Assembly: GCF_900107665.1 (NCBI RefSeq)
Contig: NZ_FNQT01000001.1
Span: 169,742 to 233,741, forward strand
From: Haloplanus vescus
GTDB taxonomy: Archaea; Halobacteriota; Halobacteria; Halobacteriales; Haloferacaceae
Direction: 5' to 3'
Length of the DNA stretch: 64,000 bases
Position numbers and translations under genes: made by a program. The notes under the pieces were generated by a model. It was not told where the DNA came from and did not search any database. It saw only the letters and a list, made by a program, of their open reading frames with translations. The first letter of the stretch is position 1. Each line of letters starts with the position of its first letter. Of this stretch, positions 50,057 to 56,548 are shown piece by piece.

Positions 50057-51049
50057 ATGGTTACGTTCCTCGCCGGCGGGACGGGCACCCCGAAACTGCT
50101 CGACGGGGCCGACGCGGCGTTCGACCCCGAGGAACTCACCGTCGTCGCCAACACCGGCGACGACGTGGAACTCGGCGGCCACCTCGTCTGCCCGGACCTC
50201 GACACCGTCCTCTTTCGCGGCGGTGACGTCCTCGACCGGGAGACGTGGTGGGGACTCGCGGACGACACGACGGCGACCCACGACGAACTGCGCCGACTGG
50301 CGGACGCCGCCGGCCTCGATACCGGCCCGCGCTATCTCGATTCGGACCGACAGACTGCGGGCCGCCGCCTCGCTCGCTGGCGTCGCTTCTCCGGCGTCGC
50401 GGAGTTCATGGAAATCGGCGACCGCGACCGAGCGGTCCACATCACTCGCACCAGTCTCCTCGACGAGGGCCACTCGCTCACCGAGGTGACACACCGGTTG
50501 GCGACGGCCTTCGACCTTGACGTTGACCTCCTCCCCATGAGCGACGACCCCGTGGCGACCATCGTCCACACGGACGCGGGCGCGATGCACTTTCAGGAGT
50601 ACTGGGTCGCTCGTCGCGCGGACCCGGCGGTCGAGGACGTGGAGTTCCGCGGTTCGCAGACCGCCGAGCCGACCGACGCGGTGCTCGACGCCCTCTCGGA
50701 CCCGGTCGTCATCGGCCCCTCGAACCCCGTGACGAGCATCGGCCCCATCCGCGCGCTCCCGGGCGTCGAGGACGCCCTCGCCGACACGCCCGTCGTCGCC
50801 GTCTCCCCCTTCGTCGAGGACGAGGTGTTCTCCGGGCCCGCGGCCGAACTCATGGCGGGGACGGGACGTGAGCCGTCGACAGCCGGCGTCGCCGCCGCCT
50901 ACCCCTTCGTCGACGCCTTCGTCCTCGACGACGCCGACGGCACCGACCTCGACCGCCCGACCGTCCGCACCGACACCCGAATCGACACGCCGGCGGACGC
51001 ACGGCGGGTGATTCGCGCCGTCGCCGACGCGCTGGCGGAGGTGACGTGA
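50057..51049 (+). CDS. cofD: 2-phospho-L-lactate transferase (coenzyme F420 synthesis)
   Basis: CofD family of 330 residues. Joins the lactyl-phospho-guanosine donor to the deazaflavin Fo to make F420-0. Family motifs: [14 protein letters not shown] at the N-terminus, [25 protein letters not shown] near 28-52, [12 protein letters not shown] near 162 and [17 protein letters not shown] near 222, which bind GDP and phosphate. F420 is used by some haloarchaeal oxidoreductases. It is the first gene of a coupled four-gene set (overlaps at 51046-51049, 51795, 52646). Confidence 0.95.
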
Positions 51050-51798
51050 TGCTCGCTCTCGCCAGCCTCAGCGGGGAGTCCGACGCCGAGTGGGCGCGTG
51101 CCGGCGCCGCCCACGCCGACCTCGCCTTCCTCGGCGGCGTCGCCGTCGACGACGCGTCACGCGAGGCGGCCCGCCAACTCGTCGCGCGGGGGCGCGAGGA
51201 GTTTCTCCCCGAGGACCCCATCGCCTTCGTCGACCGCCAACTCACCGCCCTCGACGACGCGCCGATTCGCGCCGGCGTGAACGTCCGCAGCGCGACTCTC
51301 GACCCGATTCGTGCGGTCGCCGCCCGCTGTGCGGCACACGACGCGGTGATCGAAATCAACGCCCACTGCCGACAGGACGAACTCTGTGCCGTGGGCTGTG
51401 GCGAACGGCTTCTCCGCGACACCGACCGCCTCGCCGACTACGTCGCCGCCGCCAGCGAGACGGGCGCGACGGTGAGCGTGAAGGTGCGCGCGGAGGTAGC
51501 GGGCGTCGACCTGCCCGCCACCGCCCGACGCCTCGACGACGCGGGCGCCGACATCGTCCACGTCGACGCCATGGACTCGGAACCGCGCGTCGCGGACGTG
51601 GCCGCCGTCACCGACGCCGCCGTCCTCGCCAACAACGGCGTCCGCGACCGGGCGACGGCGTGGGAGTACCTCGCCTACGGCGCCGACGGCGTCAGCGTCG
51701 GGCGTCCCAGCGACGACCCGGCGGTGCTCCAGCGCGTCGCCCGCGCCGTCGACGACTGGACGCGCCGCGACACCGGCGAGCGGGGGGCGTTCGGATGA
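51049..51798 (+). CDS. Dihydrouridine-synthase-like TIM-barrel protein
   Basis: Protein of 249 residues resembling the archaeal Dus/nifR3-related family. A TIM-barrel pattern ends with ADIVHVDAMDSEP, VLANNGVRDRATAWEYLAYGADGVSVGRPS, the phosphate-binding FMN loop. INAHCRQDELCAVGCGERLLRD near residue 100 corresponds to the Dus NxxCPxxxxxxxxxG region, with three Cys residues instead of one. It is shorter than true tRNA-Dus enzymes and lacks the C-terminal helical RNA-binding domain, so tRNA may not be its substrate. The ATG at 51049 is taken, though a GTG one codon earlier is possible. It is coupled to cofD and the CitG-like gene. Confidence 0.7.
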   Translation: MLALASLSGESDAEWARAGAAHADLAFLGGVAVDDASREAARQLVARGREEFLPEDPIAFVDRQLTALDDAPIRAGVNVRSATLDPIRAVAARCAAHDAVIEINAHCRQDELCAVGCGERLLRDTDRLADYVAAASETGATVSVKVRAEVAGVDLPATARRLDDAGADIVHVDAMDSEPRVADVAAVTDAAVLANNGVRDRATAWEYLAYGADGVSVGRPSDDPAVLQRVARAVDDWTRRDTGERGAFG

Positions 51799-52649
51799 GC
51801 GACCACCCGCGACCCGAGCTGTCGCCCGCCGACCACGCCGAACTCGCCCTCCTGTTGGAGGTGGCGGCCACGCCGAAACCGGGGAACGTCGACCGGCGGC
51901 GCGACCACGACGACCTGCGCTTCGAACACTTCCTGACCGGCGCCGTGGGGTCGCGTCCGGGACTCGAACGCGCTGCGGGGAACGGCCCTCTCGGTGACGC
52001 CTTCGAGCGCGGCGTCCGGGGCATGAGCCAGCAGTCGGGCGGGAACACGCAGTTCGGCTGTCTCCTCCTCCTCGTCCCACTCGTTCGCGCGGCGGCGACG
52101 GACCGCCTGTCGCCGGACGGCGTGGCGGCCGTCGTCTCGGAGACGACCGTCGACGACGCCGCCGCCTTCTACCGGGCGTTCGAACACGTCGACGTCGCCG
52201 TCGGCGACCCGCCCGCAGACGCGCCGGCACTCGACGTGCGCCGCGGTGCCGACGCGGTGCCCACGCTCCGCGAACGCGGACTGACGCTCGAAGACGTGAT
52301 GGCACGAGGCGCCGACCACGACGGCAACGCCGCCGAGTGGACGAGCGGGTTCGAACGCACCTTTGCCGCTGCGGACGGCGTCCTCGACGACGAGGGCCCG
52401 GTCACCGACCGCCTCGCCCGCGCCTTCCTCGAGTTGCTCGCCGAGCGACCGGACACGCTCGTCGCGGTCGAACACGGCGAGGAGCGAGCGAGGGAGGTCA
52501 GTCGTCGCGCCGCGGAGGTCCGCGGAAATCCAGACGCCGCCGAGACCCTCGCCGAGGAGTTCGTCGACGACGGAATCAACCCCGGGACGACCGCCGACCT
52601 CACCGCCGCGACGGCGTTTATCGTCCTCGAACGGGGGGTGTCGCTGTGA
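51795..52649 (+). CDS. Triphosphoribosyl-dephospho-CoA synthase-like protein (CitG/MdcB family)
   Basis: Protein of 284 residues of the CitG family, which in bacteria builds the prosthetic-group precursor of citrate lyase and malonate decarboxylase. Signatures: EVAATPKPGNVDRRRDHDD near 22-40, MSQQSGGNTQFGCLLLLVPL near 77-96 and NPGTTADLTAATAFIVLERG near 258-278. No citrate lyase or malonate decarboxylase is nearby. Archaeal and methylotroph relatives occur beside C1-carrier (methanopterin) and F420 genes, so the substrate here is probably different. ATGA overlap with the gene before it, GTGA overlap with the next. Confidence 0.78.
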   Translation: MSDHPRPELSPADHAELALLLEVAATPKPGNVDRRRDHDDLRFEHFLTGAVGSRPGLERAAGNGPLGDAFERGVRGMSQQSGGNTQFGCLLLLVPLVRAAATDRLSPDGVAAVVSETTVDDAAAFYRAFEHVDVAVGDPPADAPALDVRRGADAVPTLRERGLTLEDVMARGADHDGNAAEWTSGFERTFAAADGVLDDEGPVTDRLARAFLELLAERPDTLVAVEHGEERAREVSRRAAEVRGNPDAAETLAEEFVDDGINPGTTADLTAATAFIVLERGVSL

Positions 52650-53245
52650 GCGACGCGTGGCCCGTCGCCCTCCGCGGCGTGACCGAGAGCATCGTGGCGA
52701 CGCTCGGGCCGAACGACCGCTGGAATCAGGCGGCCTTGGGTCTGCACGCGCCCGAGAGCGATGGCGACCCCGTGACCGCCGTGACGTGGGGGCAGACGCG
52801 CACTCGTGGCAACTTCGAGCGCCGGGGCGAGGGCGTCGTCCAGTTCACGACCGACCCACGCGAGTTCGTCGACGCCGCTCTTGACGTGACGGAGACGGAC
52901 GAACCGGTCCGGGACGGCGCTGCCGCGTGGGTCGAGGTGGAGGCCCGTCGCCTCGATTCGGGCACCGAGGGCGACACCGAGTGGGTGCGCTGGATGCTCA
53001 CGCCCACGGCGTCGGAGGTCCGTGAGCGGACGGTGCCGACGATAAATCGCGGGTTCTACGCCGTTATCGACGCGACGGTGGCCGCCTCGCGCCTCGACGT
53101 GCCGGCCTACGACACCGAGGCCCTCCTTGACCGCCTCGACTACTTCGCCGACACCGTCGAGCGGTGTGGCGGCCCCGCGGAGCGTGAGGCGTTCGCCCGC
53201 ATCGACGAGTACACCGACTGGCGACAGCGTCGGCCCGACGAATAA
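52646..53245 (+). CDS. DUF447-family protein (flavin-reductase-like split barrel)
   Basis: Protein of 199 residues of the DUF447 family, starting at a GTG that overlaps the preceding stop. Recognisable stretches are LRGVTESIVATLGPNDRWNQAALGLHAPES, WGQTRTRGNFERRGEGVVQFTTDPREFVDAAL, and AWVEVEARRLDSGTEGDTEWVRWMLTP. The first part looks like an FMN-binding split barrel. From memory, family members occur in the archaeal-like C1 gene clusters of methylotrophs. Last gene of the cofD set; an iron-box promoter follows 28 bases later. Confidence 0.8.
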   Translation: MSDAWPVALRGVTESIVATLGPNDRWNQAALGLHAPESDGDPVTAVTWGQTRTRGNFERRGEGVVQFTTDPREFVDAALDVTETDEPVRDGAAAWVEVEARRLDSGTEGDTEWVRWMLTPTASEVRERTVPTINRGFYAVIDATVAASRLDVPAYDTEALLDRLDYFADTVERCGGPAEREAFARIDEYTDWRQRRPDE

Positions 53246-53264: not shown

Positions 53265-53288
53265 TTTATTGTTTTAGGCTAGCCTAAA
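53265..53288 (+). promoter_or_regulatory. TATA box and iron box 2 (TTTAGGCTAGCCTAAA) of the FAD-protein gene
   Basis: TATA-like TTTATT (53265-53270) is 27 bases before the ATG at 53293. The perfect palindrome at 53273-53288 fills the space between TATA and start codon, ending 4 bases before the ATG. A regulator bound here would block initiation directly. Same arms as boxes 1, 3 and 4. Confidence 0.88.
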
Positions 53289-53292
53289 TCCA

Positions 53293-54174
53293 ATGGTGAG
53301 TGACGCGACCGAGTACGACGTGGTCGTCGTCGGCGGCGGGCCGGCGGGATGTTCGGCGGGACTGTTCGCCGCGAGATACGGCCTCGACACCGTGATTTTC
53401 GACCGCGGGCGCTCCTCGATTCAGCGGTGTGCCTTCCTCGAAAACTACCTCGGCTTCCCCGGTGGCATCGACGTCGAAACGCTGTACGGACTGATGCACG
53501 ACCACGCCGAGTCGGTCGGCTATTCGGTCGTTGACGACCTCGTCGAAGCGGTCGAGCGCGACGGCGAGGGCTTCCGGGTCATGCCGCAGGCGGGCGACCC
53601 AGTCACGGCCCGGTGGGTCGTCGCGGCCACGCGCTACGACGGCGAGTACCTGCGCCCACTCGACGGCGAGGCGATGTTCACGACTCGCGGCGGCGAGGAG
53701 CGATTCGACCGCGACTACGCCGACGCCGACGGCGCGACGCCGGTGGACGGCCTGTTCGTCGCTTCCCCGTACGGCGACACGGGCTATCAGGCCAGCATGG
53801 CCGCCGGTCGCGGCGCGCGAGTCGGTATCAGCCTCGTGGAGGCCGTGCGGCGCTCCCGCGGGTATCCGGACTCGATGGCGAACTACTACGACTGGCGGCG
53901 CCGCGAGTCGGAACTCGACGACGCGTGGGCCGACCGTGACCGCTGGCGCGAGTGGTTCGACGACCGCCTGCCCGACGACTACGGACTCACCGAGGACCGA
54001 GTCGCCGAGTTGCGCGACCGCGACGTGACACGGCGCCTCGACACCTACCTCTCCGAGGCCGACATCGAGCGTCGGCGAGAACGGGCCCACGACCGACTCC
54101 TCGACCACGTCGACGACGACCGCATCCTCGCGGCGGCGCGCGACATCGAAGCCGAACGACGGGCGAACGAGTGA
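53293..54174 (+). CDS. Iron-box-controlled FAD protein (thioredoxin-reductase-like FAD domain only)
   Basis: Protein of 293 residues. The FAD motif is VVVVGGGPAGCSAGLFAARYG near residue 10, followed by FLENYLGFPGGIDVETLYGLM, which matches the ENxxGFP stretch of thioredoxin-reductase-like enzymes. The second FAD contact is VDGLFVASPYGDTGYQASMAAGRGARVGISLVEAV near 152. The central NADPH domain and the redox CxxC are missing. In their place a short linker and a C-terminal helical region of about 100 charged residues (YYDWRRRESELDDAW...) follow. It may use another electron partner, or bind FAD for a structural or sensing role. Its iron box suggests work on ferric chelates. Confidence 0.75.
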   Translation: MVSDATEYDVVVVGGGPAGCSAGLFAARYGLDTVIFDRGRSSIQRCAFLENYLGFPGGIDVETLYGLMHDHAESVGYSVVDDLVEAVERDGEGFRVMPQAGDPVTARWVVAATRYDGEYLRPLDGEAMFTTRGGEERFDRDYADADGATPVDGLFVASPYGDTGYQASMAAGRGARVGISLVEAVRRSRGYPDSMANYYDWRRRESELDDAWADRDRWREWFDDRLPDDYGLTEDRVAELRDRDVTRRLDTYLSEADIERRRERAHDRLLDHVDDDRILAAARDIEAERRANE

Positions 54175-54240: not shown

Positions 54241-55404
54241 ATGGCGAGAGACGACGAGGTGCACGGAGCGTCGACGCGGCGACAGTACCTGTTGTGGGGC
54301 GGTACAGTCGCCGCTGGCGGCGTTCTGGCTGGCTGTACCGGCAGCGGCGAGCGCGAATCGACGCAGGCGTCCGCGGCGACCGACTCCTACTCGGTGTCGA
54401 TGGCGCCGGTCGGCGACGTCACGTTCGAATCGGTCCCGTCCACGTGGGCCGCCTACGACGGCGGATTCGCCGACATGGCGGTCGCTCTCGGACAGGCCGA
54501 CGGACTGACTGGTGTCGGCGACGGGGACCGCTACTACACGTCCGTCTACGACGACCTGCCCGGTGTGAGCGTCGACCGCGGGCAGATAGAGACCAATCCT
54601 GAAGTACGGACCAAAGAGCAGTTCTACCAACTCGACAGCGACGTGCATCTCTATGACCCGCAGATGCTCGTCAACTGGTTCGACTGGGACCCCGCGGACG
54701 TCGACGAAATCGCGACCAACGTCGCGCCGTTCGTCGGCAACCTCATCTTCCGGCGCTCCGACGAGTGGCACGACTACCAGTATTACACGCTCTACGAGGC
54801 GTTCGAGACGGTCGCCGAGGTCTTCCAAGCGCAGGCGCGCTACCGCGCCTTCGCCGACTTCCACGACGAGTTCATCACCGACGTACAGGAGCATCTCCCG
54901 CCCGAATCCGACCGCCCCGAGGTCTTTCTCACCTACGAGGGGACGGACGAACCGGAGACGTTCTCGCCGTACCGCCTCGACGACAAGGGCACGAGCAAGA
55001 AGCAGTGGCGTGACCTCGGCGTCACCGACGCCCTCGCGGGCACGGACGTGGAGAACCTCAGCACGAGCAACCGGGGCGAACTCGACTACGAGAACCTCCT
55101 CGAAATCGACCCCGACGTGATGCTCGTCCGGGGCCACGAGCGAAAGACGGCGACCGAGTTCCGCGACACCGTCCTCGCGTACATGCAGGACCACCCCGTG
55201 GGCGGTGAGTTGACCGCCGTCCAGAACGGGCGCGTCTACCGCGGCGGCTACCTCCATCAGGGCCCCATCCACAACCTGTTCCTGACCGAACGCGCCGCCA
55301 AGCAGCTGTATCCCGACGAATACGGGGCGGTGACGGACGACGCCGAACTGTTCGACCGGGAGCGCGTCGCGGACATCGTCACGGGTGCGTTCGACGATGC
55401 CTGA
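54241..55404 (+). CDS. Iron-regulated substrate-binding lipoprotein 1 (siderophore/iron ABC type)
   Basis: Protein of 387 residues. A Tat-type signal (STRRQYLLWGGTVAAGG) ends in the lipobox LAGCTG, so the mature protein is anchored outside the membrane by Cys near residue 33. The rest follows the class III binding-protein (FepB/FhuD-like) plan: a first lobe with FESVPSTWAAYDGGFADMAVALG, a helical backbone, and a second lobe with LLEIDPDVMLVRGHE near 283 and HPVGGELTAVQNGRVYRGGYLHQGP near 320. Ligand is probably a ferric siderophore or iron complex, supported by the iron boxes. No permease or ATPase is encoded in the window. Confidence 0.85.
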   Translation: MARDDEVHGASTRRQYLLWGGTVAAGGVLAGCTGSGERESTQASAATDSYSVSMAPVGDVTFESVPSTWAAYDGGFADMAVALGQADGLTGVGDGDRYYTSVYDDLPGVSVDRGQIETNPEVRTKEQFYQLDSDVHLYDPQMLVNWFDWDPADVDEIATNVAPFVGNLIFRRSDEWHDYQYYTLYEAFETVAEVFQAQARYRAFADFHDEFITDVQEHLPPESDRPEVFLTYEGTDEPETFSPYRLDDKGTSKKQWRDLGVTDALAGTDVENLSTSNRGELDYENLLEIDPDVMLVRGHERKTATEFRDTVLAYMQDHPVGGELTAVQNGRVYRGGYLHQGPIHNLFLTERAAKQLYPDEYGAVTDDAELFDRERVADIVTGAFDDA

Positions 55405-56548
55405 CGCCACGACGCGCCGGCGCTACCTGACCGCCGGCGGCGCCGTCGTCGCGGGCGCGTTCGCCGGCTGTACCGGTAGCGAGGCGAGCGACGAAACCAC
55501 CCCCGCGACGACCGGAACCCACTCGGCGACGATGGCGCCGATGGGGACCGTCGAGTTCGACGCCGTCCCCGAACGAATCTTCACCCGTCTCACACACCTC
55601 GCGGGGATGGCCTTCGCGCTCGGCCGGGGCAACGACGTGAATGCGATGCATGCGCCGGACTACTACGACGCGCTCTGGAACCAGTTCACCCCCCGACTCG
55701 ACGGCGTCTCCCTCGACTGGTCGGGGCTATACTCCTCGTGGAATCCACGCAAGGAGAAACTCTACGAACTCGATAGCGACGTCCACCTCGCCGACCCGGC
55801 GGGCATGGCCGCGCTCGACGGGTGGCAGTCCTCGGACATCGAGGAGATAGCCACGAACGTCGCCCCGTGGTTCGGCAACTACTACAGCGCTCGCCACGGC
55901 GACCCGCCGGCCGACTGGGCCGACCGCTACCGGTACTACGGCCTCTGGGAGATGTTCGAGAAGGTGTCGCAGGTGTTCCAAGCGCAGGAGCGGTACGCCG
56001 CCCTCGCCGAGATACACGACGAGTTGCTGGCGACGATTGCGGACCGCCTCCCGCCCGCAGACGCGCGCCCGAGCGCCGTGATGGCGCTCCCGCGGGATTT
56101 CGACACCATCTACGCGTACAAGGTGAACAACCCTGGCTATCTGACGGCGCACACGCGCCCGTTCGGCTTGACCGAGGCGTTCCCCGATATCTCGTCCGGC
56201 GACACCGTCGACATGGAGGCGATGCTGGAAGCCGACCCGGACGTCCTCCTCGGCCTCGGGGGCATGCACCCGGACACGGACCTTCCGGCCGCCCGCGAGC
56301 GACTCCGCACCCACCCCGTCGGTCGGCAGCTCTCCGCCGTCGAGAACGAACGCGTCTACGCGCAGGGGGCGCGATTCCAGGGGCCGATTCTGAACCTCTT
56401 CCAGTTGGAGATGACGGCCAAGCAGCTCTTCCCCGAGCAGTTCGGGGCGTGGCCCACCTACATCGACGGTCCGTACCCCGAGTTGCCCGCGGAGGAGCGA
56501 CTGTTCGACCGGGAGCGCGTCGCGTCGACAATCCGCGGCGAGGTGTGA
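55397..56548 (+). CDS. Iron-regulated substrate-binding lipoprotein 2 (paralogue of the previous gene)
   Basis: Protein of 383 residues, homologous to the preceding gene along its length: the same TRRRYLTAGGAVVAGAFAGCTGS signal with lipobox, SATMAPMGTVEFDAVPERIF, ELDSDVHLADP, EIATNVAPWFGNYYSARH, FQAQERYAALAEIHDELL and QGPILNLFQLEMTAKQLFPEQFG. The chosen ATG overlaps the end of gene 1 by 8 bases, so both are made from one message under boxes 3 and 4. Divergence in the ligand-facing segments (for example YKVNNPGYL against SPYRLDDKG) suggests different ligands. Confidence 0.85.
   Translation: MPDATTRRRYLTAGGAVVAGAFAGCTGSEASDETTPATTGTHSATMAPMGTVEFDAVPERIFTRLTHLAGMAFALGRGNDVNAMHAPDYYDALWNQFTPRLDGVSLDWSGLYSSWNPRKEKLYELDSDVHLADPAGMAALDGWQSSDIEEIATNVAPWFGNYYSARHGDPPADWADRYRYYGLWEMFEKVSQVFQAQERYAALAEIHDELLATIADRLPPADARPSAVMALPRDFDTIYAYKVNNPGYLTAHTRPFGLTEAFPDISSGDTVDMEAMLEADPDVLLGLGGMHPDTDLPAARERLRTHPVGRQLSAVENERVYAQGARFQGPILNLFQLEMTAKQLFPEQFGAWPTYIDGPYPELPAEERLFDRERVASTIRGEV

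Follow-up and report, generated by a model that had tools for sequence, protein, structure and literature searches.

A cofD-dus-citG-DUF447 locus of Haloplanus vescus and a possible methanopterin-type one-carbon carrier in haloarchaea

The window analyzed here is a 64,000-nucleotide (nt) stretch of the haloarchaeon Haloplanus vescus (contig NZ_FNQT01000001.1, forward-strand positions 169,742 to 233,741), and our subject is a group of four overlapping genes within it. A prediction made earlier from the letters of the window (the original prediction) had described a coupled cofD, Dus-like, CitG-like, and DUF447 operon in which only CofD had a clear role, in coenzyme F420 biosynthesis. The four overlapping genes are real and lie as follows, in window coordinates.

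50057..51049, plus strand: cofD, 2-phospho-L-lactate (or enolpyruvyl) transferase of coenzyme F420 biosynthesis; 330 amino acids (aa); TIGR01819 384.4 bits, PF01933 149.8 bits
51046..51798, plus strand: Dus-like flavin mononucleotide (FMN)-type TIM-barrel reductase, RNA-binding domain absent; 250 aa; PF01207 27 bits, TIGR00736 139.6 bits
51795..52649, plus strand: CitG-like protein; 284 aa; PF01874 225 bits; solved homologue 3h9p
52646..53245, plus strand: DUF447 protein, FMN split-barrel, GTG start; 199 aa; PF04289 72.6 bits, PF20766 66.7 bits

By the open reading frame calls, cofD overlaps the Dus-like gene by 1 to 4 nt, depending on whether the latter starts at GTG 51046 (4 nt) or ATG 51049 (1 nt), and the Dus-like/CitG-like and CitG-like/DUF447 overlaps are 4 nt each. 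CofD passes its equivalog cut-off (TIGR01819, F420_cofD, 257.45 bits), which bears out the F420 role it had been given. The family matches lie well beyond chance, with cut-offs of 27 bits for PF01874 (CitG), 24 for PF04289, 24.8 for PF20766, and 20.4 for PF01207; the Dus-like protein falls under that of TIGR00736, the MJ0144 family (218.7).

Two gene pairs and their neighborhoods

Gene neighborhoods were scored in 20 haloarchaeal and 20 non-haloarchaeal loci with profiles built from these same loci. With the window, the haloarchaeal set comprises 21 loci, which were picked by the position of a Dus or CitG/DUF447 match and not randomly. All four genes were contiguous in 13 of the 21. Adjacency of cofD and dus was found in 18/18 loci holding cofD, and that of citG and DUF447 in 18/18 holding citG. 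Where the group was broken, the break fell between dus and citG (L051, L056, L057, and L062); one further locus (L049) had dus-citG-DUF447 without cofD. At the syntenic loci of genomes G019, G071, and G130 (L043, L044, and L045), cofD-dus was followed by other conserved genes, and citG-DUF447 was cleanly gone. We read the operon as two functional pairs, cofD-dus and citG-DUF447, which are separable and are lost separately. Joint action of the four genes as a single unit is not supported as stated, and the survey found conserved linkage rather than the scattered locations in relatives that the original prediction had set against its own reading.

Outside the haloarchaea, citG-DUF447 adjacency was found in all 19 of the 20 loci that held citG, and dus-citG adjacency in 14; the order cofD-dus-citG-DUF447-dmrX, the last being a dihydromethanopterin reductase gene, was seen once (L080). 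In a contig scan with the CitG alignment, the best 80 of 561 matches all came from methanogens and anaerobic methanotrophic archaea (ANME). In these, DUF447 lay directly after citG or overlapped it in 58 of the 74 loci with at least 700 bases downstream, a Dus-like gene stood 5' of citG in 39/69, and a TIGR02700-type dihydromethanopterin reductase lay within 3 kb of citG in 25/67 (the family was checked on the L067 protein, 410.6 bits versus a cut-off of 251). cofD was present in only 2 of the 80 named loci. Genome G128, recognized as Archaeoglobus fulgidus because its DUF447 protein is identical to 2iml at every residue but the first, also has citG and DUF447 adjacent; this organism owns AF2089, which is listed as a characterized ribofuranosylaminobenzene 5'-phosphate (RFAP) synthase, or MptG (PMC8305020, in the part consulted). 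The S. acidocaldarius control genome gave matches for DUF447, CitG, and MptG.

The pair also occurs in bacteria. Plasmid records matched DUF447 in 35 cases, the CitG-like protein in 35 (with identical genus counts), and MptG in 40. Genus details come from the best 30 of 35, 30 of 35, and 30 of 40 matches, respectively, and Azospirillum, Rhizobium, and Phyllobacterium plasmids carry the CitG-like and DUF447 genes together with mptG. An 11-kb stretch of a Phyllobacterium plasmid encodes 4a-hydroxytetrahydrobiopterin dehydratase, MptG, methylene-tetrahydromethanopterin (H4MPT) dehydrogenase, Mch, a RimK-type ligase, the CitG-like protein, Fae, DUF447, and a DUF6513 protein, so that the occurrence of CitG-like and DUF447 proteins in methylotroph-type methanopterin clusters, as stated in the original prediction, is seen here directly. 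The orf5 and orf7 genes of methylotroph C1 (one-carbon) clusters are presumably the CitG-like and DUF447 counterparts. In a methanotroph transcriptome paper, mch-orf5-orf7-fae is named as a methanopterin gene island (PMC3615186).

Joint loss of citG-DUF447, mptG, and mer

Distribution was surveyed in a 196-genome phylum sample and in 293 haloarchaeal genomes, 255 of them of high quality, with mer scored at a threshold of E 1e-50. In the phylum sample, the haloarchaea without DUF447 were G019, G071, and G130; the same three lacked CitG and the MptG homologue (TIGR00144), and all three retained the Dus-like gene. Across the 293 haloarchaea, these genes were nearly universal: mptG was found in 283, DUF447 in 285, and mer in 283. 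Genomes without mptG were G418, G208, G019, G215, G071, G130, G263, G295, G313, and G359, with G225 scored as positive on a match of E 1e-4 only. DUF447 was absent from G019, G215, G225, G071, G234, G130, G339, and G359, and mer from G210, G019, G215, G225, G071, G130, G334, G339, G359, and G432. Joint absence of mptG and DUF447 was seen in five genomes. mer was missing from 7 of the 8 DUF447-less genomes versus 3 of the 285 that hold DUF447 (Fisher p = 2.8e-11; all Fisher p values given here ignore shared ancestry) and, among the high-quality genomes, from 4/4 versus 1/251 (p = 2.9e-8). The p values for mptG with DUF447 were 7.8e-7 in the full set and 1.5e-5 in the high-quality set, and those for mptG with mer were 3.4e-6 and 3.6e-5. 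On a FolCP tree of 20 genomes, the genomes that have lost the module of citG-DUF447 and mptG (losers) need three changes, at least two of them forced by well-supported branches, and one loser, G130, stands beside a sister, G154, that is a holder.

We also compared 36 hand-picked genomes that include the main losers: 28 module holders, G418, and seven losers. All 36 had mch, and 35 encoded a protein of the dihydropteroate synthase type (PF00809), losers included. mer at ortholog strength (276 to 333 bits) was found in 28/28 holders and in G418, and in 0/7 losers. The high-quality losers retained mch, FolCP, cofD, and dus, and in three of them cofD-dus was kept, with dus followed by another conserved gene and no citG-DUF447 in between. 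Because mch and folP are kept in losers and mer is lost, folate synthesis and Mch are independent of the module, and Mer goes with it.

Besides a long FolC-FolP-type protein, haloarchaea have a second dihydropteroate synthase (DHPS) gene, folP2, adjoining a gene for an MptE-like diphosphokinase (L223, 1383-2642 and 2715-3434; G000:C1, ~574 kb). We rejected these two as a pterin-coupling pair, as their distribution follows the module only partly. In losers of genus g7 (L224 to L226), a protein resembling methyltetrahydrofolate:corrinoid methyltransferase (NF005719; at 249.9 bits, slightly short of the cut-off of 259) replaces the second DHPS and adjoins a corrinoid protein (TIGR02370, under cut-off), hinting at an alternative route for methyl groups in these losers.

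A proposed side chain and competing explanations

Haloarchaeal MptG homologues have a mean identity of 31% to A. fulgidus MptG (L103), the same value as MptG of a bacterial methanopterin cluster. The R26 position, the GLGSGTQ glycine loop, and the second glycine motif are kept in 18/18 haloarchaeal-type rows of an alignment from which L102 was left out (residue numbers are those of M. thermautotrophicus [PMC6787355], with positions matched via alignment to other methanogen MptG rows). GRGxRSG and GQSSWGP motifs are common to the haloarchaeal and bacterial cluster proteins, and the haloarchaeal protein passes the broader subfamily TIGR00144 (163.7 versus 113.5 bits). mptG is unlinked to citG-DUF447 in haloarchaea. 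Its neighbors, considered as pathway genes, were uninformative: a KaiC/FlaH-like ATPase, a coiled-coil protein, transcription factor S, and what we take to be an ilvD-like dehydratase. One haloarchaeon (G394:C1:131130-131960, L101) has, besides the haloarchaeal-type protein, a second, methanogen-type MptG (LIDLS...NRVDGG, GRGGTSG; 288 bits).

The CitG-like protein shares PF01874 and a PKPGNVD-type motif with the triphosphoribosyl-dephospho-CoA synthases CitG and MdcB. Unlike them, it stands in a pterin/F420 context and not a citrate/malonate one, and its scores lie far under the citrate-lyase and malonate equivalog cut-offs (29.1 versus 272.3 bits for TIGR03125, 34.7 versus 282.35 for TIGR03132, and 28.2 versus 280 for a third), so that a citrate-lyase CitG identity was rejected. 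The AlphaFold2 model of the DUF447 protein (predicted local distance difference test [pLDDT] score, 95.4) matches the FMN-bound structures 2iml (Z 22.7; root mean square deviation [rmsd], 2.2 over 182 residues), 2nr4 (MM1853; Z 22.5), and 2ptf (Z 15.6), with flavin reductases at Z ~13 and below. From these matches, DUF447 is in all likelihood an FMN protein.

In methanopterin, aryl-deoxyribitol is joined to alpha-ribofuranosyl 5-phosphate, and CitG uses ATP to form an O-glycoside of alpha-ribose, releasing adenine. The way from the MptG product to methanopterin requires reductive opening of the ribofuranose and an alpha O-glycoside ribosyl transfer, which suggests DUF447 as the reductase and the CitG-like protein as the transferase. 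MptG would couple an aryl acid to phosphoribosyl pyrophosphate, giving a C-riboside; DUF447, using FMNH2, would open the ribofuranose to the deoxyribitol; and the CitG-like enzyme would form the alpha-O-ribosyl-5-phosphate bond. The resulting carrier would be used for methyl-group supply by Mer, which would need both F420H2 and the pterin. We infer the carrier product, each catalytic step, and the use by Mer. Taken together, the co-loss with mptG and mer, the adjacency to dihydromethanopterin reductase in methanogens, and the bacterial C1 clusters with mptG make it fairly probable that citG-DUF447 and the unlinked MptG build the arylribitol-ribose side chain of an H4MPT-type C1 carrier, additional to folate, and that cofD-dus serve F420. 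The arrangement resembles H4MPT side-chain biosynthesis of methanogens and methylotrophs (the MptG/RFAP synthase branch), in which the same three families occur, with citG and DUF447 adjacent and overlapping and linked with mptG, mch, and dihydromethanopterin reductase. It differs in that haloarchaea produce folate as well, their MptG is divergent (asparagine at the D19 position, GRGGRSG), dmrX is not adjacent, and the pair is joined to cofD-dus.

The original prediction had stated that haloarchaea use folate, which is true and, if this second carrier exists, apparently incomplete; its suggestion of an operon for F420 and a folate-like cofactor is supported, and modification of F420 by the partner genes is not, since loss of citG-DUF447 leaves cofD in place. 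Published sources differ. In the parts consulted, one holds that haloarchaea lack methanopterin-specific enzymes and moves their Mch and Mer to folate (PMC8305020), and another lists Mer of Halobacteriales as a methanopterin enzyme (PMC8498797). Haloarchaeal Mer exceeds the NF002619 equivalog cut-off (471.7 versus 276 bits for the G320 protein, L240), and none of the 293 haloarchaea reached that of TIGR03555 (Mer). In several haloarchaea (L232, L233, L236, L237, and L240) mer adjoins cofE, which makes F420 and C1-reduction genes neighbors at two places. Coexistence of the two coenzymes has been described before, for methylotrophic bacteria and for Methanosarcina barkeri (PMC9012536, PMC3261824). 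Our literature search, with most subscription journals outside its scope, found no published proposal for the haloarchaeal CitG-like/DUF447 pair, nor any paper assigning DUF447 or CitG to a methanopterin role.

Several points weigh against an H4MPT-type carrier, a compound proposed from comparative genomics. Tetrahydrofolates have been reported from haloarchaea (PMC3261824). The haloarchaeal MptG scores 173.8 bits against NF040726, the RFAP-synthase equivalog, under its cut-off of 328, and its D19 position is asparagine in 18/18 haloarchaeal-type rows; a D19N variant of Methanothermobacter MptG retains some activity (PMC6787355). HVO_2628, the mptG homologue of H. volcanii, was judged unlikely to encode MptG (PMC8305020, in the passage cited). 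dmrX was beside the genes in none of the 21 haloarchaeal loci, no genome-wide search for it having been made. Independent losses on the FolCP tree number only two to three. Five genomes keep DUF447 and mer with no mptG (G418 and G263, of high quality, and the poorer G208, G295, and G313), and three keep mptG and DUF447 with no mer (G210, G334, and G432); a further exception, the 58% complete G234, has mptG and mer and no DUF447. As all of these are multi-contig drafts, either gaps or real counterexamples are possible. Lastly, folP2 is only partly codistributed with the module, being kept in losers G130, G215, and G339 and absent from holder G145.

An alternative, which we consider unlikely though deserving of attention, is that Mer and Mch work on folate, as published, and that MptG, the CitG-like protein, and DUF447 act in the synthesis or modification of a different ribosylated metabolite that happens to be required along with Mer, for instance an acceptor of methyl groups or a folate with a variant side chain. 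The argument for folate use made in PMC8305020, the retention of Mch in all losers and hence its independence of the module, and the differences of haloarchaeal MptG at D19 and at a T-to-R position would fit such a scheme. It sits less well with the bacterial loci, in which all three families cluster with methanopterin genes, with the methanogen loci, in which two of the families cluster with dihydromethanopterin reductase, or with the NF002619 score of Mer. The co-loss might also be a coincidence of lifestyle or genome reduction, in which reduced lineages independently shed dispensable genes of a methanogen ancestor. The losses are few, and most loser genomes are small (1.7 to 2.4 Mb for g7 and G130), but the equally small haloarchaea G145 and G278 (1.9 and 2.2 Mb) retain everything, losers retain mch, folP, cofD, and dus, and the lost genes are otherwise nearly universal, which leaves coincidence an improbable account. 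Least probable is that all four genes act on F420, with the CitG-like protein and DUF447 modifying F420 or a precursor: contiguity with cofD in 13/21 haloarchaeal loci is what such a role would predict, but cofD is mostly not beside citG-DUF447 in methanogens and ANME, the Azospirillum, Rhizobium, and Phyllobacterium plasmids carry the pair with mptG, and its loss leaves cofD-dus in place.

The Dus-like partner, F420, and wider implications

The AlphaFold2 model of the Dus-like protein (pLDDT, 96.5) has DusC (4yco) as its best PDB match (Z 23.5; rmsd, 2.5 over 212 residues). Like bacterial DusB and DusC, it is an FMN-type TIM barrel with the catalytic-Cys position; unlike them, it has no C-terminal RNA-binding domain, as seen from the alignment of its 250 aa only to residues 1 to 241 of E. 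coli DusC, and it scores 20.6 bits versus a DusB cut-off of 293. That domain's absence had been correctly anticipated. The extra cysteines that had also been pointed out (C95, C114, and C118) are present in the window but vary among relatives; across 19 sequences only C108, at the catalytic-Cys position, is invariant among the cysteines, alongside K146, R148, H172, N196, and N197. Methanogen-side relatives (L065, L067, L069, L070, L072, L075, and L080) show, when aligned, an additional C-terminal region rich in cysteine. In the L067 protein, this end carries a methanogenesis-marker-9 domain (TIGR03277, 176.5 bits), which the haloarchaeal protein does not have.

A role as a tRNA enzyme was rejected for the haloarchaeal setting: dihydrouridine is reported as absent from Haloferax volcanii tRNA (PMC2584109), and deletion of HVO_2478 (COG0042) leaves growth in rich medium unchanged (0.0243 versus 0.0227 for the wild type) and slows it in defined medium only (0.0075 versus 0.0133) (PMC3017900). 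We take HVO_2478 to be the H. volcanii Dus-like gene from its COG and from a locus number that adjoins that of cofD (HVO_2479). Because it is a predicted C=C-reducing flavoprotein translated with CofD, the Dus-like protein is a good candidate for the archaeal dehydro-F420-0 reductase, CofX, a hypothetical enzyme expected to perform an FMNH2-dependent C=C reduction directly after CofD (PMC6450877). It is unlike that expectation in being a Dus/dihydroorotate dehydrogenase-type barrel and not a nitroreductase fold, and the CofX role is here only a candidate one. Haloarchaeal CofE is a single-domain protein of 253 aa. Against a CofX role, archaeal CofC/CofD pairs are described as specific for or preferring 2-phospholactate, in which case no dehydro-F420 reductase would be needed; haloarchaeal pairs are not mentioned in the part of that source consulted (PMC8764529). 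Only tentatively, then, do we put forward the combined picture in which haloarchaea make a methanopterin-type carrier besides folate, CofD and the Dus-like protein (as CofX) finish F420, the CitG-like protein and DUF447 finish the pterin side chain, and Mer joins both for methyl groups.

Downstream of the four genes, a perfect palindrome, TTTAGGCTAGCCTAAA (53273-53288), lies just 5' of the next gene (53293-54174), by eye an NAD/FAD-type oxidoreductase gene. That gene precedes two for similar 387-aa proteins (54241-55404 and 55385-56548) with the look of substrate-binding proteins. The palindrome resembles a DtxR/IdeR-type iron box, which suggests that it and the downstream genes form a separate iron-regulated unit.

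Methanopterin biosynthesis comprises at least 9 non-pterin steps, with ~7 proteins given as unknown in a 2011 review (PMC3087415), and candidate enzymes can now be named for unassigned steps. The printed view that haloarchaea have no methanopterin-specific enzymes (PMC8305020, as far as the cited part goes) is thereby challenged. Both questions become accessible in Haloferax volcanii, an aerobe that is genetically tractable, in place of methanogens. If the proposal for the Dus-like protein is true, the open reductive step in archaeal F420 synthesis would be filled as well.

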